Source: Macrolepiota albuminosa (Eukaryota; Basidiomycota; Agaricomycetes; Agaricales; Agaricaceae). Taken from it: a stretch of 64,000 nt of DNA. The stretch covers positions 1 to 64,000 of the forward strand of contig JAMWFC010000079.1 in NCBI GenBank assembly GCA_027475525.1, given 5' to 3'. The notes beneath the pieces are model-generated. The model was not told the origin of the DNA. It made no database searches and saw only the letters and a program-made list of their open reading frames with translations. The number at the start of each line of letters is the position of its first letter. Positions within the stretch are counted from its first letter, which is position 1. This document shows positions 1-60,235 of the stretch, piece by piece. Both the position numbers and the translations under genes were made by a program.

Positions 1-2115
1 GACGCCAAGCCCCTAGTCCCCATCGATTATACCTCTGCCGACCCTGTTATCTTGGCAGTGGATACCTCGTACATTGCTGTTGGCTACTTCTTGTGCCAGT
101 GCCTTAGCGACAATCGGAAACAGCGACGCTACAACCGCTTTGGGTCTATCACGCTAAACGACAGAGAGTCTCGCTACAGCCAGCCTAAGCTAGAACTCTA
201 TGGGCTCTTCAAAGCCTTCCGGTCGCTAAAGATGTATTTGATTGGCGTACGGAACCTTATCGTTGAAGTCGACGCTAGGTACATCAAGGGCATGTTGCAG
301 AATCCCGATATTCAGCCATCCGCTAGCATGAATCGGTGGGTAGTCGCCATCCTCATGTTTCACTTTGAGTTGGTACACGTCAAGAGCTCTTTCCACGGGC
401 CAGATGGACTCTCTAGGCGACCACGGCAGCCTGGCGACCCGGTAGTGGACCCTCAGGCTGATAGCGATTTCGAGGACTGGATCGACCGCTTACATGGTTT
501 CGTGCACCTCATACAACAGCCAATTCCCTTACTACGACGGCAACAGCCTGCCAGCATCCTTCTACATCCCATTGTCCCTTACCGCCCCGAGACCTTTAGC
601 GCACCCCTCACATTCTACACGGCAAGCATTTTCAGTCAAAATTCGCCTCCAGTAAAAGTCGTACAAGAGCCCCATCCGCTAAGGGAAGACAGCAGAAACT
701 TGACCTACGATGCCGTCCCCCGATCCGCCAAAGCAAAGGCAGAAGACAGCCGCTTGTTAATCGTTGAACAGTGGCTACAAGACCTTAAGCGACCCGCAGG
801 CCTTACCGACGAACAATACGCGACCTTTATCCGCTACGCTACCCGTTTCTTCTTTACCGACAACAGACTTTGGCGACGAAATCGAGATGGAACCCACAAG
901 CTGATCATCAAGCCAGAAGGTCGCTTACGAGTCTTGCGCGCTATGCATGACGAGCTAGGACATAGAGGTCTGTACGCTACTCGAGCTTCTCTGCTAGAAC
1001 GATTTTGGTGGCCACACGCTAGCGCCGACATCGCCTGGTACATCAGCACTTGCCACCTCTGCCAAATCCAACAAACGCGCCAAGTGCTCATTCCGCCAAC
1101 CGTTGCAACGCCAGCTCCACTCTTTAGCAAAATTTACGTCGACACCATGCATATGCCCAAGTCTGGTCGCTACAAGTACATCATTCAAGGTCGTTGCTCG
1201 CTAATCCACTGGCCTGAATTTCGAATGCTTCAAAGAGAAAATACCGAGGCGGTCGCCAAGTGGCTATTTGAGGACGTCATTTGCCGTTGGGGAGCGCTAA
1301 GAGAGATCGTCACGGATAACGGTGCGCCCATCATCAAAGCGCTAACTTACCTCACCAAGAAATACAACATTCACCACATTCGAGTGTCTGGCTACAACAA
1401 ACGCGCCAATGGCCTGGTAGAGAGACCCCACTTTGACGTTCGGCAAGCACTCTTCAAGGCAGTCGATGGCGACGAGTCTCGTTGGAGCGAAGCGACCTAT
1501 TCAGTGTTCTGGTCGGAAAGAGTTACTATTCGTAAGCGCATGGGTTGCTCTCCCTATTACGCGGCTACTGGCACCCATCCTTTACTCCCTGCCGACATCA
1601 TAGAAGCGACCTATCTTCAACCAGCACCCAACAGTATCTTAGCGACTACCGACCTTATCGCCAGACGAGCCATTGATCTCCAACGAAGGAAGGAAGATTT
1701 AGAGCGACTCCACGAGGCAGTCTTTAGCGCACGTCGCCAAGCAGCATTACGATTCGAAACCGAGCATAGCGCCACTATCAAGGATTACAACTTCCCGAGG
1801 GGCGCGCTAGTACTCATGCGTAACTCCAAAATTGAAACCTCATACAACAAGAAAATGCGCCCGCGCTATCTAGGACCTTTGGTAGTTATCGCTCGTAACC
1901 GTGGAGGCGCTTACGTGCTCTGTGAATTAGATGGTTCAGTACTGCATCGACCTGTTGCCGCTTTTCGCCTATTGCCATACCTCGCTAGAGAACAAATCGA
2001 CTTGCCGCTTGAAGCGCTAGATATCGACACCACCAAGCTGAGAGAACTTGAAGAAACCGAACTATTGGACGATGATGACTTGCCGACTTTAGTTGAAGAA
2101 GAAGAAAACGATTAG
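1..2115 (+). CDS. pol: Gypsy Pol polyprotein, RNase H and integrase part (copy A)
   Basis: The frame is open from base 1, so this is the C-terminal 704 codons of a longer Pol; no start codon belongs here. The first ~110 residues are a Ty3-type RNase H (VDTS at the N-terminal acidic strand, then KLELYGL and VEVDARY). The integrase follows, with an HHCC zinc region (GHRGLYAT, then CHLC) and a DDE core: first Asp in IYVDTMH (codon 1141-1143), second in VTDNGAP, Glu in GLVERPHFD. The GPY/F-like end reads PRYLGPLVV. There is no chromodomain; the protein ends in an acidic tail (ELLDDDD, EEEEND). The catalytic residues are all present, so this half could still be functional. It is nearly the same as codons ~550-1249 of copy B pol. 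The gene converges on the antisense gene. Confidence 0.93.
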   Translation, partial: DAKPLVPIDYTSADPVILAVDTSYIAVGYFLCQCLSDNRKQRRYNRFGSITLNDRESRYSQPKLELYGLFKAFRSLKMYLIGVRNLIVEVDARYIKGMLQNPDIQPSASMNRWVVAILMFHFELVHVKSSFHGPDGLSRRPRQPGDPVVDPQADSDFEDWIDRLHGFVHLIQQPIPLLRRQQPASILLHPIVPYRPETFSAPLTFYTASIFSQNSPPVKVVQEPHPLREDSRNLTYDAVPRSAKAKAEDSRLLIVEQWLQDLKRPAGLTDEQYATFIRYATRFFFTDNRLWRRNRDGTHKLIIKPEGRLRVLRAMHDELGHRGLYATRASLLERFWWPHASADIAWYISTCHLCQIQQTRQVLIPPTVATPAPLFSKIYVDTMHMPKSGRYKYIIQGRCSLIHWPEFRMLQRENTEAVAKWLFEDVICRWGALREIVTDNGAPIIKALTYLTKKYNIHHIRVSGYNKRANGLVERPHFDVRQALFKAVDGDESRWSEATYSVFWSERVTIRKRMGCSPYYAATGTHPLLPADIIEATYLQPAPNSILATTDLIARRAIDLQRRKEDLERLHEAVFSARRQAALRFETEHSATIKDYNFPRGALVLMRNSKIETSYNKKMRPRYLGPLVVIARNRGGAYVLCELDGSVLHRPVAAFRLLPYLAREQIDLPLEALDIDTTKLRELEETELLDDDDLPTLVEEEEND

Positions 2116-2543
2116 AAAAGAATATATATTGATAAGCTCTTTCTTTCTATTACTTACTTTACTTATCTTTCTTGCCGATACTTACCATACTATATTCAAC
2201 AGACAATTCCTTACGTAGTCAAGTCGCAGCGCTAGCGTGTCGCCAACGCTTAGCGCATTGCGCAACTCTCGCCAAGGGTTTTTCGCCATGATGATTTACT
2301 GAGCGTTTCCCTTTTCTCAAAAATTTGTCTAAGTCCCACACCTACTACTCCTCTTGCTAAAAACTTACTTTAGAACACTTACCGCTTGCTTTCTCGTTGC
2401 CATACATTTCTTGATCTCTGCCGTTGCGTTAACTCAGATTACTAGACTCATCCGTCCACTCGGCAAGGAGGCGGCAAAAACAAATATATATCGAAACGGC
2501 AAGAGAAAATATAAACAAGACGGCCTATCTACCCTAAGGTCCG
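2116..2543. other. Convergent spacer between pol and antisense gene (copy A)
   Basis: These 428 bp separate the pol stop at 2115 from the antisense-gene stop at 2544. No coding sequence is visible; both transcripts must end or overlap here. I count eight copies of CGSYAA/TTRSCG (for example TTGCCG, CGCCAA, TTAGCG, CGGCAA), against about one expected by chance. The matching spacer in copy B (8894-9320, 427 bp) is clearly homologous. Confidence 0.7.
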
Positions 2544-4949
2544 TCAGTCATCATCCTCTGAAAGCGACATCGAGTCGTCGAGCGGCAAGAGATCGCCAAC
2601 TTGCACGTGGTTGAGGGCCTGCCACTCTAGCGCCTCGTTGCAGTCCGCCTGGTACTCTTGAAGGGCGTCCATGCTACGAGTCAAATTGGCGTATCGAAGG
2701 CGAGAGGCCATGATTTGTTGCCGCACCCGCTCGCGCTCGCGACCCAGTACCGCTTGCATACTTGCCGCACGCGTCGCCATCCGCTCTATCACTTGAGGGG
2801 GGTACAAAGCCACCACCGGATAGACGAGGTCTTCCCCCAGCCACTCGTAAGTGTCGCCAGTGACTCTTGGCTGAGGCTGGGGGGTCCACGATGAAGGCCC
2901 ACTCGAGCTTGTCCAAAGCTGCGTCGCCAAGTCACCTTCACTTACCCAGGGGGCGGCAGGCTCCACTGCCGGCAACTCCTGGGACTCGCCAGGGAAGTCC
3001 CGCAAAGTCTCTTCCATCGCCCCTTCGCCCTCTACCACCTCTTCTGCCACTGGCTCCCTAGCCGCGGTTCCCGCCTCGTCGTTTTCGCGTTGAGTCGCCA
3101 AGGTTTCTTCTTCACCCTCGGCGTCCTCAGTCCCTCCCGTTGCCGCCTTCTCGGCCTTCTCTTCATCCTCCATCTCCACATCTGCAGGGACCTCTTCCCG
3201 CTCCTCTGGTGGCGCCGAGTCGCCAACCGCTGCCCGCTCTCCCACCTCCTCCCCCCCGCCAAGGGACCTCGCCGCCAAATGGATGGGCGACAAGAGGCCA
3301 CTTGGGCCTGCCTCGGAATCTTGAGGGGGCAGGCGACTCGCCGCTAATGCCCTCTGCAAGTCTTCCATCTCGGTGTCGCGAGGGGCTGGCGAGGGGGGAG
3401 GTGAAGAGACCACCCGAGGTCGCTTTGCCTTGCCCTTCCCTTTGCTGGGGGAAGGGGCTTGTCGTTTTGTGGGGACCGCAGTCCCTTGGCGCTCTCCGGC
3501 GCCACGATTGCCGACCGTTTCGTTTTCATCCCCTTGACGCGTCGGCAGCGCCAGGGAACTCTTGCTGATTAAGGCCGCGTCGCCAGCGGCCTGCTTCTTC
3601 CTCTCCCCCTCGACGAACTCCCGCGCCCTTCTTACGAGTACGGCACGCTTGAAAGTGCGCTCCACTACCGCGTCGGGAGCCCCACCGCGTTCACGACTCT
3701 TGGCGCCGTCCAAAGTGCAAGCTCGTTTTAGCGTCCCGCACCGGTAGCAGGGCTGGCCACCGGTGGGGTACCAACACCCCTCTGGGTCGTTGTCGGCCCA
3801 GCACTTGTCGCACTACAGAAGTGTTAACAAACGCGGTAAGAAGAGCTACAACCCTTACCGCTCCTTGGGAGTCCTTGAACTCCCGTCTTGCCGCCGGACT
3901 TGCCGTCTTCTTGTCCTTCATCTCCGGCAAGACCACCCCCGCCTCCAATCCTTCATCTAAAACCGCCTCATCTCGTCGCGCCACCAACAGACCCTTCAGC
4001 TCTGAGTCGCTAAAGGAGGTTTGTGTTGGTACCTGTCAACTAGCTGGTTAGCAGGGGAAGTACCTTGGCGCGACGAGCTTACCGCGTAGCGAGGGGCGGC
4101 AGCCTTACGAGACTTGAAATAGGATGAACAGCGGTCGCCAACAGTAAGAAAGGAGGAGACTTACCTTCTTTTTCAAAGTCTTGCCCGGCTTAACTGGGGA
4201 ACCCATGCTGCTTGCCGGCAGTGCTGGGTTCTGGGCACTGCCGGCGCGGGAATCTTTACTCGACCCAGCGACTGCGGACTCCTGCCTTTTCGTAGCAGGC
4301 GCCTTCCCCTTGCCGACGACCTCCTCCTCACCAGTGACTTCGCGCCCTTCTTGCGCCTGGAGCCTTTCCTGGGCATCCCGTGACGCCTCGGCAAACGCTT
4401 CCTCACGAATGGCAGCCATCTCGGCATCAACCTGAAGGTTGGCGAGAGGCGCCAATACCTCTTGCTTACTGCTAGGAGACAAATCAGACCACAGCTAAAG
4501 TTAGAAATAACAATCAGAGATACTTACTCAGGCGCGGGAGCGCTTACCGTCATCGGCAAGGCGCCAGACAAAATATCCTCCAGTTCGTCCTCGATTGTCG
4601 GGACGGGAGGGGGCGCCTGGCAACTCGATCAGCTAGCGACACGGCAAGGACTGAAAGCACTCACAAAACGGGAGAAAGGCGCTAACCACTCAGCGCCACG
4701 ATTGTCTACGTACCGCGCCCGGCACCACTCTCGCACCTCAATCTCCCGATCCCACCCAACGCCAAGTACTCGCACCTCATACCACCGCTCCAATAATCTC
4801 ATTACGCCAACGACCAGATTTGCAGGCGCTTCGGCGCCAACACCCTCGATCCGCCGGATAAAGCGGTTCGCCTTGTCAATGTATGCGGAGGCAGCGTCTT
4901 GAGCCTCGCGGGACGGTACTGGGGGCGGAGTTGGAATTCGGAAGGACAT
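2544..4949 (-). CDS. Antisense accessory gene of the gypsy element, Zn2Cys6-like protein (intact, copy A)
   Basis: This six-exon gene runs against pol. Exons are 4949-4665, 4616-4528, 4468-4165, 4112-4083, 4032-3859 and 3812-2544. All introns are GT-AG and the joined frame is open for 716 codons from ATG 4949. The N-terminal ~95 residues (start MSFRIPTPPP) look folded; I do not recognise them. Residues 295-326 carry CX2CX8CX8CX2CX6C, close to the fungal Zn(II)2Cys6 pattern. A basic NLS-like KGKGKAKRPR patch, Glu/Asp/Ala/Pro-rich low complexity, a helical Arg/Glu segment (GRERERV) and an acidic end (SLSEDDD) follow. A nuclear DNA-binding role is inferred from the cysteine pattern only. Introns can survive retrotransposition because they are antisense to the genomic RNA. 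Copy B has the same five introns. Confidence 0.85.
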
Positions 4950-5109
4950 ATTTTAATTTCTGAGCGCCAGGTAAAAAAGGGGGAGAAGAAACGAAGTCCA
5001 AACTCATGCGCCAGGACTATAAACTAAATCTCAAGAACGCACGGACCACTTGTCACAAAAGCGGTAACGGTAGCCTTATTTGGTGACTGAGGACAGTCAA
5101 TTTTTCAGT
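4950..5109 (-). promoter_or_regulatory. 5' leader of the antisense gene (copy A)
   Basis: This is the non-coding stretch between the antisense gene's ATG (4949) and the element's polypurine tract. It is matched base for base over long stretches by 6328-6486 upstream of the copy B antisense gene. The antisense transcript must start here or inside the 3' LTR; a TTAAAATAGG box on the - strand near 5219-5228 is the best TATA-like candidate. No start site can be read from the sequence. Confidence 0.5.
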
Positions 5110-5119
5110 TGGGGGGAGA
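5110..5119 (+). promoter_or_regulatory. Polypurine tract of copy A
   Basis: The purine run TGGGGGGAGA lies directly before the LTR's first TG. This is the expected position of the plus-strand primer. The same tract, reversed, borders the copy B 3' LTR remnant at 6318-6327. Confidence 0.8.
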
Positions 5120-6065
5120 TGATAGGACCCTATACAGGTTAGGCGCATCAACGGCAGGCTCGGCACCGGCCCCGGAAACCTTGCCGCACTCGTTCCGAAC
5201 TTAGCGCACGCGTTCTACCTATTTTAAGCCATTTCTGACGGCCGCGCACGGCAAGAAGCAGATCCAATCAGTGATAGCGCCGATCGGCAGACAGAATGAC
5301 AACTGACAGATGGCATCAGTCACTGACGACAGCGCTTAGCGAGAAGTTTGATGATCTATCAAAAACTGACGGACAGCTTGGCGTTTGACCTTGGCGTCTG
5401 ACACCGCTTACCGTCTCGATTTGGCGCCCAACGTCGCTTAGGTGTTTTGACAGACAGAAGGGTGATGGATTGATGGTTTAGCACCGCGATCTGCCGCCTG
5501 GTGGCGCCAAGGGTCCTCAAAGGACGGTAGGGATCGGAAACCGTTGGAGCAGCCCCTTTGAAATTTTCCAGTTTACCGCACTCTGGCGTCATTAGCCACT
5601 GGCGACGGCAAACTCATTGTAGTATAAAAGTACTTACCGACTTGTACATAGAGCAGAACAATAGACCACAGTTTACTCCCCTTTCCTCAGTCTCCCTTAC
5701 GCTCAAGAGCTCATTTACGCTACAGTCGGCAACGTCGAACTCATCGGTAGTTACAGACGCTCGCCAACACTCGACACACTCGCGCCTTGCAACTACGGCA
5801 GGCATTATCGACGCTTAGACTTCGCTAAGCTTACCGTGCTCTTGCCGCTTACCTTTGCCGTGTTCGCTTACCGCTCTTTCCTAGGCGCTTTACCTTAGCG
5901 CTTTACACTTGCCGACCCCGTTACCGACTTTTACCCTTTTTCACAGACGCGTTCTCTGGGACCTGCCCGGGACTCCTCAAATCACTTATAGCGCGCCCAA
6001 CGCACACTCTTGGTACGGTAACACTCCAGTTACATTTGTTACTGACCAAACTTTGGGCGTCATCA
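5120..6065 (+). repeat. 3' LTR of copy A (946 bp)
   Basis: It begins TGATAGGACC right after the polypurine tract and ends GGGCGTCATCA, giving short TGAT/ATCA inverted ends. Two other near-complete copies in the window (15736-16767 and 58928-59864) define the ends independently. A TATA box lies at 5623-5629, so U3 is about 500 bp. I count 23 CGSYAA/TTRSCG hexamers, roughly twelve times chance, spread on both strands. The LTR borders the antisense gene, so its U3 may also carry that gene's promoter. Confidence 0.93.
5623..5629 (+). promoter_or_regulatory. LTR TATA box (copy A)
   Basis: TATAAAA within GTAGTATAAAAGTACTTACC is conserved in position in the B-family LTR at 15736-16767 and in a slightly altered form in the solo LTR. 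It would start the sense transcript about 30 bp downstream. Confidence 0.75.
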
Positions 6066-6317
6066 CCGTCAGTTTTTAATAGATCATCAGGCTTCTCACT
6101 AAGCGCTGTCGTCAGTGACTGATGCCATCTGTCAGTTGTCATTCTTGCTGCCGTCGGCGCTATCACTGATCGGATCTGCTTCTTGCCGTGCGCGGCCATC
6201 AGAAATGGCTTAAAATAGGTAGAACGCATGCGCTAAGTTCGGAACGAGTGCGGCAAGGTTTCCGGAGCTGGTGCCGAGCCTGCCGTTGATGGGCCTAGCT
6301 TGTATAGGGTCCTATCA
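6066..6317 (-). repeat. Truncated 3' LTR of copy B (252 bp)
   Basis: On the minus strand it starts TGATAGG at 6317, right after a polypurine tract at 6318-6327, and matches the first ~250 bp of the family LTR. It stops at CCGT (6066-6069), directly against the end of copy A's LTR. The missing ~700 bp should lie beyond copy A's 5' LTR, outside the window. Confidence 0.88.
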
Positions 6318-6486
6318 TCTCCCCCCAACTGAAAAATTGACTGTCCTCAGTCACCAAATAAGGCTACCGTTACCGCTTTTGTGACAAGTGGTCCGTGCGT
6401 TCTTGAGATTTGGTTTATAGTCCTGGCGCATGAGTGTGGACTTCGTTTCTTCTCCCCATCTTTTCCTGGCGCTCAATTTAAATAAA

Positions 6487-8893
6487 ATGTCTTTCCGCAT
6501 TCCAACTCCGCCCCCAGTACCGTCTCGCGAGGCTCAAGACGCCGCCTCCGCTTATATTGAAAAAGCAAACAAGTTTGTTAGGCGCATCGAGGGTGTGGGC
6601 GCAGAGGCGCCTCCAAACTTGATTGTTGCCGTGATGAAACTGCTGGAACGCTGGTATGAGGTACGTGTTCTTGGCGTAGGGTGGGATAGGGAGATCGAAG
6701 TGCGGGAGTGGTGCTGAGCCCGCTATGTTGACAATCGTGGCGCCGACTGGTTAGCGCCGTTTTCCCGCTTTGTAAGTGCTTTTAGTCCTTGCCGTGTCGC
6801 TAGCTGATTGGGTTCCTAGGCGCCTCCTCCCGTCCCAACGATCGAGGACGAATTGGAGGACATTCTGTCTGGTGCCTTGCCAATGACGGTAAGCGCGCCT
6901 GCGGCAGAGTGAGTATTCCTAACCCATTCTTTTAACTTAGCTTTGGTCTGATCTGTCCCCCCACAGTAAACAAGAGGTGTTGGCGCCTCTAGCACGGATG
7001 CAGGTAGCTGAGGAGCTGGCGGCGCAGCAAGAGGAAGTGTCTCAGGATGCTCGGGAGATCACCAGGGCTCTGGAGGAGTGGGAGCGGGTCAGGGAGTTGG
7101 CGGAGGAAATGGAGGGAGTTGCTGCGGGGAAGGCGCCTGCCATTGAGAGGCAGGTGGTAGCAGAGGGATCCGGCAAGGTAGGTCGCGCCGGCAGCACTTT
7201 GAGCCCAGTGCTGCCGGCTAGCAAGTCGGGCTCGCCGAGGAAGCCGGTAGGCGCTTCCAAACGCAAGGTAAGTGCTGAATTTCGCTTGCCGTTGCCGACT
7301 GTCACTAACAACATCTGCAGAGTCGCAAGGCGGCTCCTCAATACGCGGTGAGTGGTACTTTCTTTTTGAACTTGAATTACTAAGTTTCTGTAGGCGCCAA
7401 CCCAAAGCTCCTTTGACGACAAGGAGCTGAAAGGTTTGCTTTTGCCACATCGGGAGAAGGCCGTTCTTGACGAGGGGCAAGAGGCCGGGGTCGTTATGGA
7501 GGAGATGAAGGGAAAGAAGACCGTTTCCCTGGCGACCCGGCAAGCGTTTAAGGAGGCGCGGGGAGCGGTAAGTGACTTTTTCTGTCTCCTTTAGTCTCTC
7601 GCTGACTCCTAGCGCTAGTGTGACAAGTGCTGGGCGGACAACGACCCAGAAGGCTGCTGGTTTCCGACTGGGGCCCAGCCGTGTTATCGTTGTGGTGCCC
7701 TCAAGCGCGCTTGTACTATCGACGGGGCGAAGAGTCGCGAGCGTGGCGGCGTGCCAGACGCCCTGGTCGAGAAAACGTTTTCGCACGCTGTTTTGGTCAG
7801 GAGGGCAAGGGAGTTTGTGGAGGGACAGAAGAGGAAGGTTGCCGCCGGAGGAATGGCAGCTATTGGACGTGCCTCCTTGGCGTTGCCGACGCGCCAAGGA
7901 GATGGGTCAGAGACAGTCGGCAATCGAGGCGCTGGAGAGCGCCAAGAGACTTCAGTCCCAGAAAAACGACAAGCCCCTTCCCCAAGCAAGGGGAAGGGCA
8001 AAGCAAAACGTCCTTGCATGGTCTCATCGTCACCTTCCCCCTCGCCAGCGCCTCAAGATACCAAAATGGCCGACTTGGAGAAGGCCTTGGCAGCGAGTTG
8101 CCTCCTGCCTCGTGACACAGAGGCTGGCCCCAGCGGTCTCTTGTCGCCTATTCACTTGGCGACAAGATCTCTTGGCAGGGAGCAGGAGGAGGGAGAGCGG
8201 GAGGCGATTGGCGACTCGGCGCCTCAAGAGGAGCGGGAAGACGCTCCCGCTGATGTCGAGATGGGGGAGGAGGGGAAGGCAGAGGGAGCGGTAACGGGAG
8301 GGGATGAGGACGCCGAGGGTGAAGAAGAAACCCTGGCGACGCAACGGGAAGACGACGAGGTGGTGGCAGGCGAAGGGGAGGGTGCGGCAGGAGATGCCAG
8401 GGAGGAGCCTGAGTGGCGCTGGCTGCCTCCCTACAGTAGCGTTGCCCCTTGGGAGGTTTCAGACCCCGAGGACGTTGCCGGCCTGGAGCCTAGGTGCCCC
8501 GTGGTCGCCAGAGTCAATCCATTGTAGACTCCCCAGCCGCAGCCAACGGTCACAGGCAATGCTTTCAACTGGCTAGGACAAGACCTCGTGTACCCGGTGG
8601 TGGCACTTAACCCTCAGGAGATGCTGGAAAGGTTCTCGAGGAGGGCAGCAACGATGGAGGCGGCAATGGGGCGAGAGCGGGAGCGAGTCCGAGGGCAGCT
8701 AATGGCGCTAAGGTTGCGCTATTCCAACCTTGGTCGTAGCCTTCGCGTTCTTCGCGACTACCAGGGCGATTGCCAAGCCGCCATGGATTGGCAAACCGCC
8801 AACAACATCCAGCCTGGCGACCTCTTGCCCCTTCGTGACTCTTCCCTGCCTATTTCCGACGACTCCTTGCCTATGGACGAGGATAGCGAGTAA
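6487..8893 (+). pseudogene. Antisense accessory gene of copy B, two in-frame stops
   Basis: This is the second copy of the Zn2Cys6-like gene. Exons are 6487-6771, 6820-6908, 6967-7267, 7321-7347, 7394-7567 and 7619-8893. Exons 1, 2 and 5 and intron 1 (48 bp) have the same lengths as in copy A; ignoring stops it again totals 716 codons. The six-cysteine cluster (from codon 293), the KGKGKAKRP patch and the helical C-terminus are kept. Two lesions break it: TGA at 6715-6717, where A has CGG, and TAG at 8525-8527, where A has TGG in the homologous context. All changes are transitions. Protein similarity to A is lower in the low-complexity parts than in the N-terminal domain. Confidence 0.85.
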
Positions 8894-9320
8894 ACGGACC
8901 TTAGCGTAGATAGGCCGTTTGTAAATATTTTGTTTTTGTTACCGCCCATATTTCTAGTTTTGCTGCTTCCCTGCCGAGTGAACAGATAAGTCTAGTAATT
9001 TGAGTTAGCGCAACGGCTGAAAGCCAAGAAAGTAAAGCAAAGAGAACGCAAGCGACTAGTATTCTAAGGTAGGTTTTAGCAAAAGCAATAGTATGTGAGG
9101 GACTTAGACAAATTTTGAAGAAAAGGGAAACGCTCAGTAGATCATCATAGCGAAAAACCCTTGGCGAGAGTTGCGCAATGCGCTAAGCGTTGGCGACCCG
9201 CTAGCGCTGCGTCTTGACTATGTAAAGAAATATCTGTTGAATATCGTACAGTAAATATCGGCAACAAAGATAAGTAAGGTAAGCAATAGAAAGAAAAAGC
9301 TTATCAATATATAGTCTTTT
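8894..9320. other. Convergent spacer of copy B
   Basis: This is 427 bp of non-coding sequence between the antisense stop (8893) and the pol stop (9321). It is homologous to 2116-2543 in inverted orientation, and CGSYAA-type hexamers recur here too. Confidence 0.7.
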
Positions 9321-12300
9321 CTAATCGTTTTCTTCTTCTTCCACTAAAGTCGGCAAGTCATCATCGTCCAATAGTTCTGTTTCTTCAAGTTCTCTCAGCT
9401 TGGCGGTGTCAATATCTAGCGCTTCAAGCGGCAAGTCAATGTGTTCTCTGGCGAGATACGGTAATAGGCGAAAAGCGGCAACAGGTCGATGCAGTACTGA
9501 ACCATCTAATTCACAGAGCACGTAAGCGCCTCCACGGTTACGAGAGATAACTACCAAAGGTCCTAGATAGCGAGGGCGCATTTTCTTGTTGTATGAGGTT
9601 TCAATTTTGGAGTTGCGCATAAGCACTAGCGCTCCTCTCGGGAAGTTGTAATCTTTGATGGTAGCGCTATGCTCGGTTTCGAATCGTAGGGCTGCTTGGC
9701 GACGGGCGCTAAAGACTACCTCGTGGAGTCGCTCTAAATCTTCTTTCCTTCGCTGGAGATCAATAGCTCGTCTGGCGATAAGATCGGTAGTCGCTAAGAT
9801 GCTGTTGGGTGCTGGCTGAAGGTAGGTCGCTTCTATGATGTCGGCAGGGAGTAAAGGATGGGTGCCAGTAGCCGCGTAATAGGGAGAGCAACCCATGCGC
9901 TTACAAATGGTAACCCTCTCTGACCAGAACACTGAATATGTTGCTTCGCTCCAGCGAGATTCATCGCCATCGACTGCCTTGAAAAGCGCTTGCCGAACGT
10001 CAAAGTGTGGTCTCTCTACCAAGCCATTGGCGCGCTTGTTGTAGCCAGATACTCGAATATGGTGAATGTTGTATTTCTTGGCGAGATATGTTAGTGCTTT
10101 GATGATGGGCGCACCGTTATCCGTGACGATTTCTCTTAGCGCTCCCCAATGGCAAATGACGTCTTCAAATAGCCACTTGGCAACCGCCTCGGTATTTTCT
10201 CTTTGGAGCATTCGAAATTCAGGCCAGTGGATTAGCGAGCAACGACCTTGAATGATGTACTTGTAGCGACCAGACTTGGGCATGTGCATGGTATTGACGT
10301 AGATTTTGCTGAAGAGGGGAGCTGGCGTTGCAACGGTTGGCGGGATGAGCACTTGGCGCGTTTGTTGAATTTGGCAGAGGTGGCAAGTCCTGATGTACCA
10401 GGCGATGTCGGCACTAGCGTGTGGCCACCAGAATCGTTCTAACAGAGAAGCTCGGGTAGCGTACAGACCTCTATGTCCTAGCTCGTCATGCATGGCGCGC
10501 AAGACTCGTAAGCAACTTTCTGGCTCGATGATCAGCTTGTGAGCGCCATCTCGATGTCGTCGCCAAAGTCGGTTGTCAGTAAAGAAGAAACGGGTAGCAT
10601 AGCGGATAAATTTCACGTATTGTTCGTCGGTAAGGTCTGGGGGTCGCTTAAGGTCTCGTATCCATTGTTCAACTACTTGCAAGCGACTGTCTTCCGCCAT
10701 TGCCTTGGCAGATCGGGGAACGGCATCGTAGGTCAGGTTTTTGCTGTCTTCTTTTAGCGGATGGGGTTCTTGTACGACTTTTACTGGAGGCGAGTTTTGT
10801 CCAAGGATGCTTGCCGTGTAGAATGTGAGGGGTGCGCTAAAGATCTCGGGGCGGTAAGGGACAATGGGATGTAGAAGAATGCTGGCAGGCTGTTGCTGTC
10901 GTAGTAGGGGGATTGGCTGTTGTATAAGGTGCACGAAACCATGTAGTCGGTCGATCCAGTCCTCGAAATCGCTATCAGCCTGTGGATCCACTGCCGGGTC
11001 GCCAGGCTGCCGTGGTCGCCTAGAGAGTCCATCTGGGCTGTGGAAAGAGCTCTTGACGTGTACCAACTCAAAGTGAAACATGAGGATGGCGACTACCCAC
11101 CGGTTCATGCTAGCGGATGGCTGGATATCGGGATTCTGCAGCATGCCTTTGATGTACCTAGCGTCGACTTCAACAATCAGGTTCCGTACGCCAATCAAAT
11201 ACATCTTTAGCGACCGGAAGGCTTTGAAGAGTCCATAGAGCTCTAGCTTAGGCTGACTGTAGCGAGACTCTCTGTCGTTTAGCGTGATAGACCCAAAGCG
11301 GTTGTAGCGTCGCTGTTTCCGATTGTTGCTAAGGCACTGGCACAAGAAGTAGCCAACGGCAATGTACGAGGTATCCACCGCCAAGATAACAGGGTTGGCA
11401 GAGCTATAGTCGATTGGAACTAGGGGTTTGGCGTCTTGTAGGGCTTTTACTAAGTCACGTTGGGCAGTGACCTGGTCTGGCCCAAATTCAAATGGTTCGT
11501 TGGCGCGGGTGAGTCGGTTAAGGGCGTGTGCGCGATGGGCAAAGTTTTTGACGAATATCCTAAGAACGCCAACGGTACCAAGAAAGGCGCGAACTTCAGA
11601 TAAGTCGCGGCAAGGACCCCATCGCTCCAGGAGTGCTAAGCAAGACTCGTCGGGAACGCGACCGTTGGGAGTGCAGATGTGACCGAGTATTTTGAATCTT
11701 GGCGCGCAAAGGATGAGTTTGTGACCGCTAAAGGTTCCACCGCTATACTTCATACGTTGGAAAACTCGATTGAGCAGCTGAAAAAACTCCCATAGCGCTA
11801 AGCGAATGTTGGAGTTGTCAGGATGGGTCGTCGGTAAGCCATTTATGAGTCGCCAGTCTTTGGGGCCTTTGACGCCAACGTCATCAATGAAGCTAAGGAC
11901 ATGGTGCGGTATCTCGGGTTGGAGGATGAATGTGATGTCGTCATGAAATATGGGGACTGAGTTTGTCCATCCCATCGGTAAGGTGACTAGGCGCAAGGCG
12001 CCAAACAGAGTTTGAAAAGTGGTGAGGTCACGGGAAGAAGGGTGTATCAGACGTTCATCGTAGCCAACGTAGAGGTCAAGGGTGGCGCCACAAATGCGCC
12101 CGGCAAAGGACTCGGCAAAGTGGTCAGGGAAAGGCGGTATGCCAGAGTGTCGTATAGTAACTCTATTCAGCGGCTCAAGACTGTGGACTATGCGTAGATT
12201 GCCGTTCTTTTTGAGGACGCAAAACCAACGGGAGCGGTAAGAACTATTGGAGGGCTCGTAGACGCCAGCCTTGATTTTGGTCCTAATGATTTGGCAGACC

Positions 12301-13115
12301 TCAGCTTCGATTCCTGGCGGTAACGGTCGGTTGTGCTCAGTCCATGGCACGTGAGGGATGATCGGGATCACGACAGGCGGAAAGAAGTCTGTGCGGAGGC
12401 TGCCGCATTCTGAGTCCTCCCAAGCAAAGGCTTTGTCTTGCTTAGCGACAAGATCGGTAAGGACGTTCAACTCATCTTTGGTCAAAAATCCTGTGTCATG
12501 CTCCTTGGCGAACTGCTGCTGGCGTTCTGCGGTAAAACGTCCTGTGGGCTGAAAGGGTGGCGGATTCGGTGATAAGGTCGGTATGTCGGCAAGAGGGTCG
12601 CCAATAATCTGGTGCTCGATTCTAAACGTCTCGGGAGAGTGCGTAGCGATGGGTTTTGTTTTAAGTGCAACTGGCTTATATTTCTTCTTGACTTGTACCC
12701 CTTTCCTTTTGGGAGCGTTAGCTTGGTTATATACAGAGGTGGAAAGGGGAACTGTAGCATGAGGAGCGGCAAGTCCAAGAACGGCAGGAGCCGAGGCTCC
12801 GGGAAGGGTAGTGAGATATGTATCGGTAGACGCAATATTTTGAAAGGATTCGGAAGCGGTAAGGTACAAGTAGGCAAGAGAGGAGTCGGTAATGTTTTGA
12901 TTTTTCTGGGAAGGCTCTGCGTCGGTAGTGGGTAAAGTAGTTAAAACATCCTGGTCAAGAAAAGCAGTAGACATAACAGTTACAAGACCAGTTGAATGGT
13001 CATATTCCAGCGTTAGCGCTACATCTCCGTGATTGTCGCCAATCACCTCCTCGATGGTCTGTGAAAACACCGGTGGGGAGGTTCGTTGGCGTGCTGGTTG
13101 GTAAACTCCGGGGGC
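9321..13115 (-). pseudogene. pol: Gypsy Pol: reverse transcriptase, RNase H, integrase (copy B)
   Basis: This long frame has no ATG near its start and opens after a TAA at 13116-13118, so it needs a frame change from the protease ORF. Counting from codon 13070: a linker (1-230), reverse transcriptase (~240-430, with LDLYVGYD and the active site FIDDVGVKGP), RNase H (~540-660, VDTSYIAVG) and integrase (~840-1130, HHCC zinc region, TDNGAP, GLVERPHFD). The first integrase catalytic Asp is Asn here (IYVNTMH, codon 10293-10295), while copy A has Asp. The tail is acidic and there is no chromodomain. With the lost catalytic residue and the upstream breaks, this copy is probably dead, though RT could still work if expressed. 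Confidence 0.9.
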
Positions 13116-13162
13116 TTAGCGCGGGCGCCTTTTTGTTGTCTCCTAGGGAACGTTGGCACCGT

Positions 13163-14548
13163 TCATCGGATTCCGGAATTGGGGTCGCTAATTGTGAGGG
13201 TCGTTTTCTCGTCGGTAACTGTCTTGACAACTGATCGTGCCAAGACGTCGAAAGGTCTGCCAAGTAGCAGGTCGTATGCTGGGGAGCGTAAGATGTGTAT
13301 CTGGAGATAAAACGTAATGTCGCCAAGGGTGCACGGCACATTCTTGGCGAGTCCTAGGGATCGGTCTACTGTGCCGTTAGCACTCTGCATGTTTAGTATA
13401 ACGGTAGGGTCATAAATGAGGCCTAGATCGTTAGCGACTTCTGCTGCCATAGAAATGATTTGAGAACCGCTATCCACGATTGCCTCTACCTCGTGCTTAT
13501 TGTCTACGGTTAGCGCGACGGAGCGAATAGCGTGTGATTCTTGAGCGACGGTAAGGATGGCGGGGTCCTCTCCATGGTCTACTGACCTAAGGTAGGTCTC
13601 CACTGGGTCCACAGAGGTGGCGTTAGCGATGGTGTCGGCAGGAGGGTCTTCAGTGTCCAAAGAGTCGACGGTAATGGAAAAACCAGGGAGCGCGTCGTCA
13701 AGATCCTCGACCTCGGCAACGGTCGTCGCCAAGGGTCGTCGAGGAGTGACTGCCGTCTTGACTTGGTTGCGGACGTCTGGGGCAATACTACAAAGCTCTT
13801 CAACTGATAAGGTAACATTGGTTTTCATGATGCGGTTAAAGACGTGGTTGGATTTCTCTATGTCAAATATTGGTGCGGTAGGTCGGTAGCCACCCTCAGG
13901 ACGTTTCTCGGGAGCGGCAAAGTTTCGTTGTGCTGGTGCGTGATAACGGTCGGGAATCCCTGAGTAGGGATGGAGAGGCGGCAAAGGCGGTTCGGGAGCG
14001 GTAGCGGACGACGATGGTTCTGGAGCAGTAGCAGGGGTAGTGGCAGGCGGTGCGGCAGGAGTGGGAGTCGGTAGCTTGCTAGCGGGAGGCATTGGCTTAT
14101 ATCCTTTAAGAGGTTGTTTGGGCTGCTTAACTTCAACCCCATCAAAGACCTGATTCTTAAGCGAATCCAACTCCTGTTGGAGCTTGGCGATACGTTCTTC
14201 CCGTGAGAAAGTAGAATGGTCGCCAACGCTGTCGAAATGTAAGACCTCGTGAATCATTTGCTGTTGGGTCGCCTGTTCTGGGTCGGGATTGGCGTTGCCA
14301 GAAAGCGTGCCGGTAACGATCTGTCCTGGGTTGCGCCTATGCCACTCATCAACTCGTTCCTGGAAAGACTTCTTGTCTGGGTAGTTGGGAATGATGGCGC
14401 CAGTGGTGAGGACTATCTTGCCGTCGATAGCCCGTCGAATTCTCCCTTGCCGAATATAATTCTCTAAAGTCGCGCAGCGTCCTCTAGTCATGGTATGGCC
14501 AATTTCCCCACAGAAGTGGCAAGGACCAGGTGCGGGTATGTTAGCGGG
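13163..14548 (-). pseudogene. Gypsy nucleocapsid-protease part (copy B)
   Basis: This frame continues the gag frame straight after a TGA (14549-14551). Its first codons encode a zinc-knuckle-like CHFCGEIGH...C (14474-14521) that sits upstream of the first ATG at 14491, so the ATG is not the true start. A linker rich in Pro/Ala/Thr follows, then a retropepsin domain with VDSGSQIISM and DLLLGRPF. It ends at TGA 13163-13165 after NSGIR. Relatives usually run on here without a stop, so this codon may be a mutated CGA. Confidence 0.82.
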
Positions 14549-15355
14549 TCAGTTAGCAGTCAGATTGGTGGTAATCATAGTTTCGATACGTGTCATAGCG
14601 GAAGCAACAGCGGCGGTAATAGCAGCATTGAGCTCCTCTTTCTTAACGAAGTCGGTAGTGAGAGGCGGGATGGGAATTATACCGTTAGTTCGCTCAGGTG
14701 GTGGGCTCATCCTAGCGCGCTGTAGCCCAATGCCAGTGTCCGTTCCCTTGAGAACCCATTTACCGGCTTCAAAGACGTCGGCAACGTTATAGGGCTCATC
14801 AGGGTGATGAGCCTGATGAACTATTTCTAGGCGACAAGCAATACGAGTCCACAGTGAAGTCGGGATGCCTTGCTGGAACAGGCGACGCTCCTCGTTAATA
14901 TAGAGCTTGCCGTTCTGCAGAAGCCACCTAGCGATTTTCTGGAACTCGCGGTAATACGTGGAGAATGCGCCAAGAGACGATGTGCCACTGTCGAATGATT
15001 CCTGTACTAGTTTCTGGAGCTCGTTTACCGTGTATTGGGTAGCCTCTTCTGTGCCAGGGTACAACTGGATCACTGCCGTCTTCCAGTCCTCATACAAAGC
15101 GCCTTGGGCTGGAACGGGTGGGGCGGCAGGGACAAAGGCGGCAAACTCGGTCAAACCTGTCCACGTCTCTGCCGTGTCATATGATACGTATCTTGCCGCG
15201 TACTCCTTCATCTGCGTATGGTCGGTAATGTTACAATCTCTGAATAAATACTCCAACTCCTTGAAATACTGGGAGAGCTCCCGTGGCTTGGACTCATCCC
15301 ATTTCGGTGCCGAGAAGTGGTTGTGTGGCAGCATGCGCTGGACTTGTTGTTCCAT
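14549..15355 (-). CDS. gag: Gypsy Gag capsid (copy B)
   Basis: The frame is open from 15748, but the first ATG with a Gag-like start is at 15355 (MEQQVQRML, then SAPKWDESKPREL). This is the familiar N-terminus of basidiomycete gypsy capsids. The retrotransposon capsid fold region includes YFKELEYLFRD and YYREFQKIARWL. It stops at TGA 14549-14551, and the in-frame continuation encodes the zinc knuckle. The stop is therefore either a mutation or a readthrough site. The ~130 codons upstream of the ATG are open but may be leader. Confidence 0.85.
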   Translation of the reverse strand: MEQQVQRMLPHNHFSAPKWDESKPRELSQYFKELEYLFRDCNITDHTQMKEYAARYVSYDTAETWTGLTEFAAFVPAAPPVPAQGALYEDWKTAVIQLYPGTEEATQYTVNELQKLVQESFDSGTSSLGAFSTYYREFQKIARWLLQNGKLYINEERRLFQQGIPTSLWTRIACRLEIVHQAHHPDEPYNVADVFEAGKWVLKGTDTGIGLQRARMSPPPERTNGIIPIPPLTTDFVKKEELNAAITAAVASAMTRIETMITTNLTAN

Positions 15356-15715
15356 GGCAACGGTGGTAACGAGTTCGGTTAGCGGTAGTGGGGAAGGAGT
15401 TCTAGAGATTGGCGACGGGGTAAGCAAAATGAGTTGTGAAAGAGGCGTTAGCGGAGTAATTGGGGTGATTGGTTGCGGTACGGTAAAGGGCGACGCTAAG
15501 GGGTCGTCGGCGCTATAATCGAGGGAATGCGGGAAGAGATCAGGAAATGTGTCTACAGTGGCATTCTGTAGTTCCTGTGCAAGAGAGAGACCCGGTAAGG
15601 CACCAGGTGGTTGTGGAGTTGATGGATGGGAAGGAGCTATGCCTTCTGCCGACTGGTCTAGCAGGCGGCGCCTACGCTGGAGATGGGTTTCTGGCGGAAT
15701 TCTGCCCTTGAGATC

Positions 15716-15732
15716 CCTCGCGGTGGGCTCCA
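15716..15732 (-). promoter_or_regulatory. Candidate primer-binding site of copy B
   Basis: Three to four bases after the 5' LTR end the minus strand reads TGGAGCCCACCGCGAGG. This starts with TGG, as expected for pairing with a tRNA CCA end, and sits at the usual distance. I could not match it to a named tRNA. Confidence 0.5.
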
Positions 15733-15735
15733 ATT

Positions 15736-16767
15736 TGATGACGCCCAAAGTTTGGTCAGCAACAAATGTAACAGTAGTGTTACCGTACCAAGAGTTTGCG
15801 TTGGGCGCGCTATAAGTGATGTGAGGAGTCCCGGGCAGGTCTCAGAGAACGCGCCTGTGAAAAAGGGGAAAAGTCGGTAACGAGGTCGGCAAGTGTCAAG
15901 CGCTAAGGTAAAGCGCCTATGAAAGAGCGGTAAGCAAACACGGCAAGGGTAAGCGGCAAGAGCACAATAAGCTTAGCGAAGTCTAAGCGTCGATAATGCC
16001 TGCCGTAGTTGCAAGGCGCGAGTATGTCGAGTGTTGGCGAGCGTCTGTAACTGCCGATGAGTTTGCCGTTGCCGACCGTAGCGTAAATGAGCTCTTGAGC
16101 GTAAGAGAGACTGAAGAAAGGGGAGTAGTGAACTTCTGGTCTATTGTTCTCTGATGTGATGGTCTATGTACAAGTCGGTAAGTACTTTTATACTACAATG
16201 AGTTCGCCGTCGCCAGTGGCTAATGACGCCAGAGTGCGGTAAACTAGAAAATTTCAAAGGGGTAGCTCCAACGGTTTCAGATCCCTACCGTCCATTCAAG
16301 AGCCTTAGCGACGCCAGGCAACAGATCGCGAAGCTAAACCATCAATTCATCACCCTTCTGTCTGTCCAAAGTGCTTAGTGATGTCAGGCGCCGAATCGAG
16401 ACGCTAAGCGGTGTCAGACGCCAAGGTCAAACGCCAAGCTGTCCGTCAGTTTTTGATAGATCATCAGGCTTCTCGCTAAGCGCTGTCGTCAGTGACTGAT
16501 GCCATCTGTCAGTTGTCATTCTTGCTGCCGTCGGCGCTATCACTGATCGGATCTGCTTCTTGCCATGCGCGACTGATGCCATCTGTCAGTTGTCATTCTT
16601 GCTGCCGTCGGCGCTATCACTGATCGGATCTGCTTCTTGCCATGCGCGTCAGAAATGGCTTAAAATAGGTAGAACGTGTGCGCTAAGTTCGGAACGAGTG
16701 CGGCAAGGTTTCCGGAGCCGGTGCCGAGCCTGCCGTTGATGCGCCTAGCTTGTATAGGGTCCTATCA
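15736..16767 (-). repeat. 5' LTR of copy B
   Basis: This is the same LTR as 5120-6065 in the opposite orientation, ending TGATGACGCCC (inner) and CCTATCA (outer). The length is 1032 bp because one 77-bp block (16494-16570) is repeated; without it the length is about 955 bp. The TATA region and the dense CGSYAA hexamers are kept. Confidence 0.9.
16494..16647. repeat. 77-bp head-to-tail duplication 1
   Basis: Bases 16494-16570 are repeated at 16571-16647 inside the copy B LTR. Neither other LTR copy has the repeat. It is one of seven such blocks with the same period. Confidence 0.85.
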
Positions 16768-16869
16768 ACGTCCACATACAAAACCAGGCACTAGCCGGTG
16801 CCGAGCCTGCCGTTGATGCGCCTAGCTTGTATAGGGTCCTATCAACGTCCACATACAAAACCAGGCACT
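16716..16869. repeat. 77-bp head-to-tail duplication 2
   Basis: Bases 16716-16792 recur at 16793-16869. The block spans the outer LTR edge and the first bases of element D, so a second false LTR edge appears at about 16844. Confidence 0.85.
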
Positions 16870-17725
16870 CTTGTCTGCCCGCTTCAATGTAGGGCACTGC
16901 AAAGTGCCCTCTGCTTGACAAAGAGTCACCTTCTTCATTTGAACCCTGTTATTTTCATCATGATTATGTCTGGCACCCACTCTGGTTGTGGGCGGGGTTG
17001 CCCTCAATTTGCCGCAGGAGTTCTGCATACCACAAACTGCATGTTGTGGTCACAATCCATGTCAGCCTTCTTGGCCAAGAAGGTCCCCACATGCTGACCC
17101 CATGAGGGTGCCCCAACAGGCAGTAATCGCCTGCTTCCCCCTTTGTGGCCACTACGATGCTCGTAGTGGTTAGCAGTCTTAAGGGACTGCTCATACCTAA
17201 TGGCATATGCCACAAACTCTTCCACATCGTTGACCTCTGGGGACAGTCCGTCCTCATGTATTAGATAGTGGTGCATTTCCACTGAAATACCATCCAAGAA
17301 TGTTTCAAGCATTATATACCCATCTGGGTATACTGCCATATTCTGGGCATGGTCGTTAAGGGTATTGTAGAATCCTTGTACTAGACTGGAAGTCCTGCCT
17401 TGCATCCTGTAGTGTTGAGGGGTGCACAAATTGATTGTACAGTCCTGTTAGAACTCCTTTGAACGTCCAACGTCCACTCATACTGGACCCAGTTGACGTG
17501 CAATACTGCACGTCAAAACCACCCCATGGCCTCTCTGGCCAAGAACTCAGGTAGAACAAAGATTTGTTCTTGTTCCATATAGTCACCGCTGTATAAGCAC
17601 ATGGTGAGGTGAGTGCATACATCCATTGCCCAGTCCTCCAAGTCACTGAACTTGGACATGCCTGTGTAGGTGTGAATATGCCTACTATCTGCTTTACGCA
17701 GCTTCACCCCATCTGGTAACCGTAA

Positions 17726-17879
17726 GCTTACCCCCAGGGCATCATCGACTACTCAATGCAGGCAATTGTGCATGGCTTCATGATGCATCTGAATGGCCTC
17801 CCGCTTACCCCCAGGGCATCATCGACTACTCAATGCAGGCAATTGTGCATGGCTTCATGATGCATCTGAATGGCCTCCC
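17726..17879. repeat. 77-bp head-to-tail duplication 3
   Basis: Bases 17726-17802 recur at 17803-17879 within element D gag. Confidence 0.85.
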
Positions 17880-19157
17880 ACTGACCCAGAATCTAGTCGC
17901 TAAATTAGCAGCTTGGGGAAGTGACTTCCCTCATCCACCCTGCAGCGGACGTCCCGAGCCCCCTTGGCTGTGGGCATAATTGCCCTTGTCTCGGGGAGTC
18001 AACCTAGGGCAGTCATTCTGGCCGCTATCAGGGGCATCACGTCTGGTAGCACCATCTTAATCAAGGAAGTCTCCTTGATCATGATTGTTGCGCTGCCCAG
18101 GTTCTGGAGAAGCTTGATTCTCCTGGCCCTGCATGATGAATTGACGATGCATCTTGTCAATGGGCTTAGTGCCCTTGAATATGATGCCCTGATCATTGAT
18201 AAGGGACTGTCCCTTAGTTCTGAGGTTGCCATTGCGCATACATTGATATGTGACTCTGTCACTCAATGTTTCCACCATTGGCACATGTGGCATCACAGAT
18301 GCCTCGCTCTCCACCTTGAATGCAGTACTAGTGTGTCTATCTGGGCCTGACATTTCTGTCCTAAGGTCTCGGTTACGCAAATGTAGGGGCTCTTCACACC
18401 ACCCTTGTCCTGCTGGAGTATAAAAAGTACTCACCGGTTTTACTTTAGGCACTTCCTGCACCCGTGCTAGTGCTTCTACTAGCTCAACTCCAATGTTTTG
18501 ATTATGACATGCCAAGCATTCCTCAGACATGTGGCTCCAGGGGGTTGACACCTCTGATTGCCTTGCGGCCTTCCACTGCAAATACATCTGCAGTTCCATA
18601 GTGAGCACTCTCACCATCAAATCAGTATATTTAGTACTGAATACATTGTGCACTTCGTGCCCTTGTCACCTAAGTGCTACTATATGTGCTGAAGCATAGC
18701 GCTCGATTTGTGCTTGGGTGGTGTATTTTATCACCTCTGGGTGTAAATCCCAGAACACCTGCAAGCACACGGTGTACGTGGTTTTCAACCGCTGCTCCTC
18801 TGCTCTGGCATCATCATCGCTGGACAACTCAACCACCTCCTCAGGGAGCTCTGCACCCTCTGGGACTTCCTCCACTGCTGGTGTGCATGGAAAACAATTT
18901 TCTGTGCGGGCTACTTCAGGGATTGCAGCCTCCTCTGGTACCTCTTCTATGTGAGCTTCTGCTATCCTGGTGGACATGGAGCCCACTGCGGTTCGCCTGG
19001 CCCCACTACTCTGGCTCAGGAGGAAAGTTACCCCAGTCCATACTGATGACTCAGTGTCTCATGAGATGCCCTGGGTGCCTGTTGACTGTTGGCCCTCATC
19101 AGGGGGCCCTTTTGAGGCTAACCAACTGGACCGTCGCAGTCCACCTGACAGCTGCAT

Positions 19158-19311
19158 AACTGAGGGAGTTAATCCCCCTGGCATCTTGTCACATGGCCAT
19201 GGCTGGCCATCCTGTTGTGAGCTCTCAGCTCTCCAACTGAGGGAGTTAATCCCCCTGGCATCTTGTCACATGGCCATGGCTGGCCATCCTGTTGTGAGCT
19301 CTCAGCTCTCC
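19158..19311. repeat. 77-bp head-to-tail duplication 4
   Basis: Bases 19158-19234 recur at 19235-19311 near the start of element D gag. Confidence 0.85.
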
Positions 19312-19614
19312 AGGCCTCGCTCTTATTCCTGGGCAGGTCGGTGCTCTGACCTCAGTCTCGAGCCTTGAGTCTTGACTGACCCACATTGGATGCTGGTGCG
19401 TCTTGAGTGTCTGCTGGGTCTCCCCGTAGGTCGTGGGCATTCCACCCACCGTCAGTGGAAACTGCAGGTATGGGATTACTCATCAATCCCCTGTTTGAAA
19501 TTTGCACGGTGTAGCTGTGCAAGAAGCTTGAGAAGCTGATAGAGTTCTGTCAACGAACTCAGCGACTGATGTCAGATGCTAGGCAATAGATCCTAGCTGG
19601 CAGATTCAAAAAAA

Positions 19615-19856
19615 TATAACGAAGTTACAGCTTTTGTGAGCTTAGGATCACACTGCACAGAATCAGACCAGTCCAGTCTATTGACAATGTAGTGTAATAC
19701 AAGAATAAGCTGCTTATTAAGCAGCAGGTATGTACGTATTTATAAGTATGTAAATATTATTATATTATAATAAATATAATATAATATTCTAAGTATATAG
19801 TAAGTAAATGCTATGTGGCCAATGCCACATAGCGGACTATGCTACAACATGTGCCC
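19615..19856 (-). repeat. Probable 5' LTR of element D
   Basis: After a short A-run, as in element C, the + strand reads TATAACGAAGTTACAG and ends CTATGCTACA at 19856. This parallels element C's TGTAACCTGGGTTACG...GTTACA ends. The interior is AT-rich. The position ~130 bp upstream of the gag start fits. The inner terminal TG appears mutated to TA, so the edge is uncertain. Confidence 0.5.
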
Positions 19857-23558: not shown

Positions 23559-24403
23559 AGTCGATTCCGGCGTCAAAATAAGCTATATAATTCATCGCCA
23601 TCGCTCTTGTAAATCAACCATATCCTCTAAATTTTAGAATATTGCATCTCTCATTTGCGCCCACGCTTTCTCTGAGTACTTGACAGAGGTTGCAGGTATT
23701 GGCATCGTTCATAATGCATGTGTGGATACGCTCTATTAATGAGTTACGTGAACTTATAGAGAGCTTCAATCAAAGCGGGGATTACAATAATATATTGAAG
23801 CTAATGTACACATATGAGTACAAACCAATCGAAAGAAACTGGAGCAAAAGAAACATTGAAAAATGACCGACCGATGTCGAGAAGAAAGGAAGAAAAGGTG
23901 GGAAAAGAGAGTCGAAGTACATATACCATACCAACCTAAATAAGTTCGATAGTAAATGATGACCATATCAGAGCTCCAGAGAGAGGAAACAAAGGTTTGT
24001 CGAAGCATGTTATTACAGTCAATGTGGACAGGGTGAAGCAGTGATGGAGTGATCGATAATGTACGCGTTAATAGTAGCGTGTATGATGTGATTGCTTGAT
24101 GACAAGGGAGACCTACTCTCCCTGACGAGTCCGTCAATGTCCGCGTGACGTCGTAGATGTTGATCGTTCATGAAATCCGGATAGAGGTTGAAAAATAGAA
24201 GGAAGGACGTCGTAAACATACATAGGGATTAAAGTACAAAGAAGCAAAAGAACAAGTGTTTTTCGGAACGACGAAGGAAATCCAGCAAGGAGTCGATTCG
24301 CATATAGATAGGGGAGCTAGAAGGCAAATGATTAGAGCATGAAGTTGCACGCATCCACGACTGAAATACGCCTTACATCGCACTTCAGGTATTGCGATTA
24401 TAC
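23559..24403. other. Convergent intergenic region
   Basis: These 845 bp lie between the 3' ends of the RTA1-like gene and the UBL3-like gene. I see no coding sequence or repeat in it. Confidence 0.5.
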
Positions 24404-60189: not shown

Positions 60190-60235
60190 GGAAGCACGTT
60201 TTCAATGTGATGCCAACAGAAAATCGAGAGGTTTT

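Follow-up and report, generated by a model that had tools for sequence, protein, structure and literature searches.

Anti-silencing proteins encoded by a transposable element have been described in Arabidopsis, where the VANC proteins of VANDAL transposons are associated with the motifs YAGTATTAY and AGTTGTCC/AC, which lie in non-coding tandem repeats and differ between related families (PMC5735166, PMC10398659). The VANDALs themselves are Mutator-like DNA transposons (PMC6446971). In plant LTR retrotransposons, antisense additional ORFs are found between pol and the 3' LTR, as in Grande (gene23), RIRE2 and Retand (with TRP28); DNA binding is predicted for TRP28 and a nuclear location has been reported for Grande, in the excerpts available (PMC11963269, PMC7264820). 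The same excerpts describe HBZ of HTLV-1 as a nuclear regulatory protein whose antisense gene is read from near the 3' LTR (PMC11963269, PMC7264820). Among fungi, an antisense gene, brtn, is reported from Boty, a gypsy element of Botrytis cinerea (Zhao et al., 2011), and TET/JBP from DNA transposons (PMC12730594).

The locus described here is a Ty3/gypsy-type LTR retrotransposon with a spliced gene on the opposite strand between pol and the 3' LTR, in which a constrained antisense gene is accompanied by a family-specific DNA motif, TTRSCG, that runs through the whole element. Like the VANC system, it pairs an element-encoded protein with a short motif repeated many times in its own DNA, and between related families motif and protein may diverge together, a pairing that we infer here; unlike that system, it involves a fungal LTR retrotransposon, an antisense gene and a cysteine cluster, with sites scattered on both strands of coding DNA and LTRs, and anti-silencing, demonstrated for VANC, is proposed here by analogy. 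The antisense gene occupies the place of the plant ORFs but encodes another protein and has five conserved introns, and the excerpts report no element-wide target motif for the plant ORFs. It is likened to brtn by its placement in a fungal gypsy element, and to HBZ by an antisense gene that starts near the 3' LTR and a protein that would likewise be nuclear and regulatory. Antisense genes at this place (in plants and in one cited fungal case) and a motif-reading accessory protein (in VANDALs) are already known. The matches listed for open-licence PMC included no report that joins the two in an LTR element of a fungus and places the motif in coding DNA, no paper that treats this element or describes a fungal LTR element saturated with a motif, and no description of self-marking of a whole LTR element including its coding DNA.

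Two head-to-head copies and their antisense genes

The window, a stretch of 64,000 nucleotides at the start of contig C66 in a genome of 100.1 Mb and 129 contigs, contains two copies of the element, A and B, arranged head-to-head. Copy A is truncated at the contig start and retains the C-terminal part of pol (1-2115, plus strand; RNase H and H2C2 integrase, PF17917 and PF17921), a spacer that separates the tail-to-tail pol and antisense genes (2116-2543, 8 motif sites), the antisense gene, a polypurine tract read from the sequence (TTGGGGGGAGA, 5109-5119, plus strand) and a 3' LTR (TGATAGG...CATCA, about 5120-6065, plus strand, about 24 motif sites per kb), to whose end the LTR match extends in 20 of 20 other copies. 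This LTR abuts a partial 3' LTR of copy B (6066-6317, minus strand; inverted repeats I5 and I12), an arrangement suggestive of insertion of A at this point, the other side of A lying beyond the contig end. Copy B continues with its antisense gene (6487-8893, plus strand) and, on the minus strand, with a pol frame of 1264 aa (9321-13115), a frame with a zinc-knuckle-like CHFCGEIGH start, noted by eye, and an aspartyl protease (13163-14548, PF13975), a gag-like open frame of 430 aa named by its position, whose start overlaps the LTR (14549-15841), a candidate primer binding site read from the sequence (TGGAGCCCACCGCGAGGG, 15715-15732) just inside the 5' LTR, and that LTR itself (15736-16767). 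The same family is represented once more by an LTR-like stretch at 58983-59795 (minus strand; 17 motif sites, 20.9 per kb). Pfam matches to protease, RNase H and H2C2 integrase occur in this order; the RVT_1 and rve profiles had no match at E <= 1, and the reverse transcriptase and integrase core motifs were seen by eye.

Duplications of 77 bp, head-to-tail, were also observed in the window, at 16716-16869, 17726-17879, 19149-19302, 54592-54745, 58249-58402 and 60233-60386 (five of the six exact, one 95%), and in the fetched loci L043-L045 (75-85 bp in L044). They disrupt frames in some copies and are probably an assembly-overlap artefact (k = 77), since their length is equal at unrelated places.

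The antisense gene of copy A lies on the minus strand and starts with an ATG at 4949, about 170 bp from the LTR, with the polypurine tract in between. Its six exons are at 4665-4949 (exon 1, a helical N-terminal domain of 95 residues), 4548-4616 (exon 2), 4165-4494 (exon 3, a variable linker), 4083-4112 (exon 4), 3859-4032 (exon 5) and 2544-3812 (exon 6, with the cysteine cluster, a basic and acidic middle part and a long C-terminal helix), and the gene is convergent, tail-to-tail, with copy A pol, whose frame ends at 2115. The original prediction of an intron-bearing, six-exon antisense gene was borne out at all five junctions, which are GT-AG and in phase 0, with introns of 48, 53, 52, 50 and 46 nt in order; the frame is open as predicted, and it is 718 codons long where 716 had been given. 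The predicted CX2CX8CX8CX2CX6C spacing was likewise recovered, at residues 297-328 (cysteines 297, 300, 309, 318, 321 and 328; 3717-3812, minus strand) in place of 295-326. Copy B carries the gene at the same place, as had been claimed, with the same six exons and splice sites, but there it is not intact, because two in-frame stops interrupt it (codon 77 in exon 1, and a TAG at 8525-8527 in exon 6). In most aligned copies a TTTATAG box and a CT-rich stretch, noted by eye, precede the ATG, and these are a plausible candidate promoter of the antisense gene.

Conservation of the gene and features of its protein

Thirty genomic loci, copy A among them, were fetched for comparison. The end of pol lies opposite and downstream of the antisense gene in all 30, contrary to the refuting case named in advance, homologues never next to pol, and an LTR match is present in 28; six exons, conserved splice dinucleotides and an open frame are retained in 25. 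The remaining five have lost an exon boundary (L013), are rearranged on the 5' side (L018, L030) or have an early stop in exon 6 (L017, L028). Across copies, intron lengths differ by single bases and exon lengths by threes. In the wider own-genome search with exon 6, where 99 of 1,240 first-look candidates were scored and 114 rows were among the matches listed, 73 of the 84 rows covering at least residues 61-415 of 422 had no stop, as did 135 of 150 rows among the matches listed for exon 1 (792 candidates), both counts having been made by eye on lists of best matches and being biased towards good copies. No free host homologue was found among the best own-genome matches listed.

Between 16 distinct intact coding sequences (120 pairs, Nei-Gojobori, close and distant pairs pooled), mean dN is 0.127 and mean dS 0.786, with dS up to 1.94, giving a ratio of 0.16; the pol ends have dN 0.018, dS 0.267 and a ratio of 0.07. 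By segment, in 11 coding sequences, dN/dS is 0.09 for the N-terminal domain, 0.01 for exon 2, 0.32 for the exon-3 linker, 0.03 for the cysteine cluster and 0.23 for the C-terminus. These values, far below the neutral ratio of 1 named in advance as a refutation, indicate strong purifying selection, and the sequence comparisons strongly support a genuine element-borne gene.

Divergence of the antisense gene and of pol is discordant in several pairs of copies. The antisense genes of L010 and L014 are near-identical (dS 0.004) with pol ends at dS 0.245, those of L001 and L002 encode identical proteins with pol at dS 0.29, and L009 and L010 have an antisense-gene dS of 0.064 with a pol dS of 0.008. 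The gene and pol have different histories, such as template switching would produce, and the discordance suggests frequent recombination between element copies (loci compared, L001-L029).

Outside this genome, three protein searches (11, 19 and 28 matches, the first two scoring just the 7,997 candidates with most shared words) returned 38 distinct proteins, all from Termitomyces and all named hypothetical protein, which makes Termitomyces or a close relative within the Lyophyllaceae the probable host. Overall identity is 26-44%, and the cysteine cluster is conserved across these homologues, the alignment core C..CW.DNDPEGCWYP.G..PC.RC......C being nearly invariant. AlphaFold2 modelled the 95-residue N-terminal domain as four helices (pLDDT 86.9) and predicted a 62-residue C-terminal helix, modelled on homologue P0003, in agreement with the helical C-terminus first proposed; the cysteine cluster had a pLDDT below 50. 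The Zn_clus profile PF00172 was unmatched at E <= 1, and the looser limit of E <= 10, applied to 12 members of the alignment and another 7 proteins, gave no match either; DUF3716 matched weakly in 2 of the 12 members (best E 0.12), and among solved structures no chain matched the antisense protein or its cysteine domain. Canonical Zn2Cys6 proteins have the spacing CX2CX6CX5-12CX2CX6-8C, with a first loop of X6. The antisense protein resembles such fungal factors in its six cysteines and two CX2C-led halves, the second approximating CX2CX6C, but its first loop is X8, so the canonical spacing does not apply, and that loop is acidic rather than basic. Of the label Zn2Cys6-like, the six-cysteine cluster stands, and the profile and the canonical spacing do not; the idea of a captured host Zn2Cys6 factor finds no support in the missing profile match, the X8 loop or the own-genome matches.

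A motif throughout the element, and its possible readers

In copies A and B (1-16767) the hexamers with the highest z are CGCCAA, CGGCAA, CGGTAA and CGCTAA (CGCTAA shares its rank with the overlapping TCGCCA), and these CGSYAA words occur at 5.4-7.3 times first-order Markov expectation, as against 1.2 times in the flank at 16870-58900. In an exhaustive scan of degenerate hexamers in copy B, TTRSCG ranks first (148 sites against 22.9 expected, z 26), with 148 sites in 6066-16767 and 99 in 1-6065. Just four of the sixteen TTNNCG words are raised in copy B, namely TTACCG (32), TTAGCG (33), TTGCCG (41) and TTGGCG (42), against 4.0, 5.7, 6.6 and 6.6 expected; the other twelve occur 1-10 times each. 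The sites, each of which contains a CpG, occur throughout the LTRs, gag, pol and the antisense gene, with similar numbers on the two strands (65/83 in copy B, 50/49 in copy A). No spacing dominates in copy B and coding frames carry sites too, unlike the VANC motifs in their non-coding tandem repeats. As in the VANC system, the element's own DNA holds many copies of a short motif.

Coding constraint does not account for the sites. In codon-preserving shuffles (1000 per frame), the pol frame of copy B has 54 sites against a mean of 11.3 and a maximum of 23, and the antisense coding sequence 31 against 6.3 and 13, with none of 1000 shuffles reaching either count; pol of copy A has 29 (mean 5.0, maximum 12) and the protease frame 20 (mean 4.6, maximum 10). 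Each of the 16 distinct antisense coding sequences has 24-33 sites, and 9-23 aligned positions are shared per pair among seven diverged ones; the sites therefore turn over and their number holds.

HBZ is a bZIP factor, and we know of no motif saturation of the HTLV-1 provirus. The LTRs are the densest parts of the element (19-24 sites per kb at about 5118-6065, 15736-16767 and 58983-59795, that is, in A, B and the third LTR), and antisense genes so placed are thought to be regulatory, in the excerpts available (PMC11963269, PMC7264820), as would be expected of an HBZ-like self-regulator that binds LTR sites and tunes sense transcription or copy number, other sites being by-products. Promoter control needs no sites in coding DNA, however, and the coding frames, beyond what codon shuffles yield, come close to the spacer in density (13.7-15.8 per kb against 18.7), so we consider this alternative unlikely, if the strongest of those weighed. 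Sites spread over coding DNA suit a chromatin-wide effect better than promoter control.

A sister family, found through a homologue from Termitomyces J132, has the same anatomy, a pol 76% identical to that of the first family (L045) and an antisense protein about 44% identical over the cysteine region, with one further intron in the gene, noted by eye. In L045 (10 kb) the top word is TAGCGC (56 against 6.8 expected, z 18.9), and TTGCCG occurs 4 times against 5.8 expected, as against 41 and 6.6 in family 1. Over ten loci of family 2 (51.8 kb), which are related and partly overlapping, TAGCGC stands at 6.6, TTGSCG at 1.3 and TTRSCG at 2.0 times expectation; the values for ten likewise related stretches of family 1 (50.4 kb) are 4.8, 7.2 and 6.2, the TAGCGC excess there being partly TTAGCG followed by C. 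In two pol pieces of family 2, TAGCGC counts of 7 and 13 (shuffle means 1.5 and 2.2) are reached by 1 and 0 of 1000 shuffles, and TTRSCG counts of 7 and 11 (mean 4.3 in both) by 122 and 2. Within the family, L078 and L079 have TAGCGC at just 4.2-4.5 times expectation, with other words on top, and L031 (3.5 kb) has a top z of 8.6, no higher than five control loci (7.3-8.4). The core TRSCG is common to both motifs, and the motif of family 2 is, as read from these counts, an apparent shift of specificity, clearest in the missing TTGSCG and TTACCG. With two protein-motif pairs compared and TAGCGC raised in family 1 too, the motif may differ with the protein between related families. In family 2 the interval that separates pol from the cysteine-cluster gene also holds additional proline-rich open frames of 120-155 aa in antisense orientation, on the minus strand at L078:393-752, L079:430-789 and L080:1407-1871.

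The shift also bears on whether a host factor, such as an insulator, replication or anti-silencing protein, reads TTRSCG, with the antisense gene doing something else. The antisense protein is a putative reader, and its cluster has no recognised zinc-cluster profile; yet host flanks are at background (1.1-1.2 times expectation) and the motif changes between two families that share one genome and the same host factors, which makes a host reader decidedly improbable. Integration targeting, in which the protein would direct the integration complex to existing copies of its own element and so give nested insertions, is also disfavoured and very improbable: the LTR of copy A abuts that of copy B, one of 20 flanks is same-family pol and three more have short (74-108 bp) element matches, but 16 of the 20 have none, and the motif density there is 1.2 per kb (15 sites in 12,224 bp of the outer flanks of 20 copies).

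Composition or mutation without any reader, through codon usage or neighbour-dependent mutation, is equally improbable and disfavoured: an unrelated gypsy family (12 loci, counted as one family because they are near-identical in what was compared) has TTRSCG at 2.9 times raw expectation, and one flank window (16870-26869) reaches z 12.7 for another word, WCGWCG (40 against 6.8 expected), but codon shuffles explain most of the control family's count and not the element's, four TTNNCG words alone are raised, and in 20 copies the density falls where the LTR ends. Three control loci were shuffled in their longest frame, which carries 12-13 sites where shuffles average 7.9-8.8, counts reached by 4-13 of 300 shuffles; the control excess is therefore mostly, not wholly, explained by codons, and leaves a small residue, not saturation. 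Across the four 10-kb flank windows the z of the top word ranges over 6.8-12.7, WCGWCG being the highest, so a z near 12 is no evidence by itself.

An element that may mark its own DNA

The reading we favour, at a probability of about one half, is that the antisense protein reads the element's own TTRSCG sites in a VANC-like manner, for self-marking or anti-silencing. The protein, with its helical N-terminal domain, its invariant six-cysteine cluster and its long C-terminal helix, which could dimerise, would be made from a promoter beside the 3' LTR and would bind TTRSCG sites along the whole element. Once bound, it would mark the element's DNA as self and maintain its transcribability, most probably by counteracting CpG methylation or heterochromatin, as VANC does on VANDAL transposons. 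That the protein reads the motif is deduced from their joint occurrence in both families, the difference between the two families and the cysteine cluster; that reading opposes silencing is suggested by the VANC analogy. The antisense orientation would permit introns to be retained, because the genomic RNA does not carry them as splice signals; sites would accumulate through synonymous and non-coding point changes, and in the sister family a diverged protein would go with a shifted motif. A self-regulator or anti-silencing factor had been among the functions originally proposed, and that idea has gained support from the element-wide motif, which formed no part of the proposal.

Stated in full, at not quite even odds, the antisense gene with its introns would encode a new cysteine-cluster DNA reader, and the element would have rewritten synonymous positions of gag, pol and the antisense gene, together with its LTRs, into a self-address (TTRSCG, moving towards TAGCGC in the sister family) by which its full length can be distinguished from host DNA. 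If the antisense protein does read the motif, transposable elements would have acquired sequence-specific self-recognition independently of VANDAL, in a different kingdom and a different class of element. A self-address written into coding DNA would, if true, amount to a self/non-self code evolved inside protein-coding sequence, and would suggest why, in an element that passes through RNA, an accessory gene that keeps its introns lies in antisense orientation. The two families with their two motifs form a natural specificity pair, and a direct experiment on motif binding and on methylation removal by the antisense protein becomes possible.
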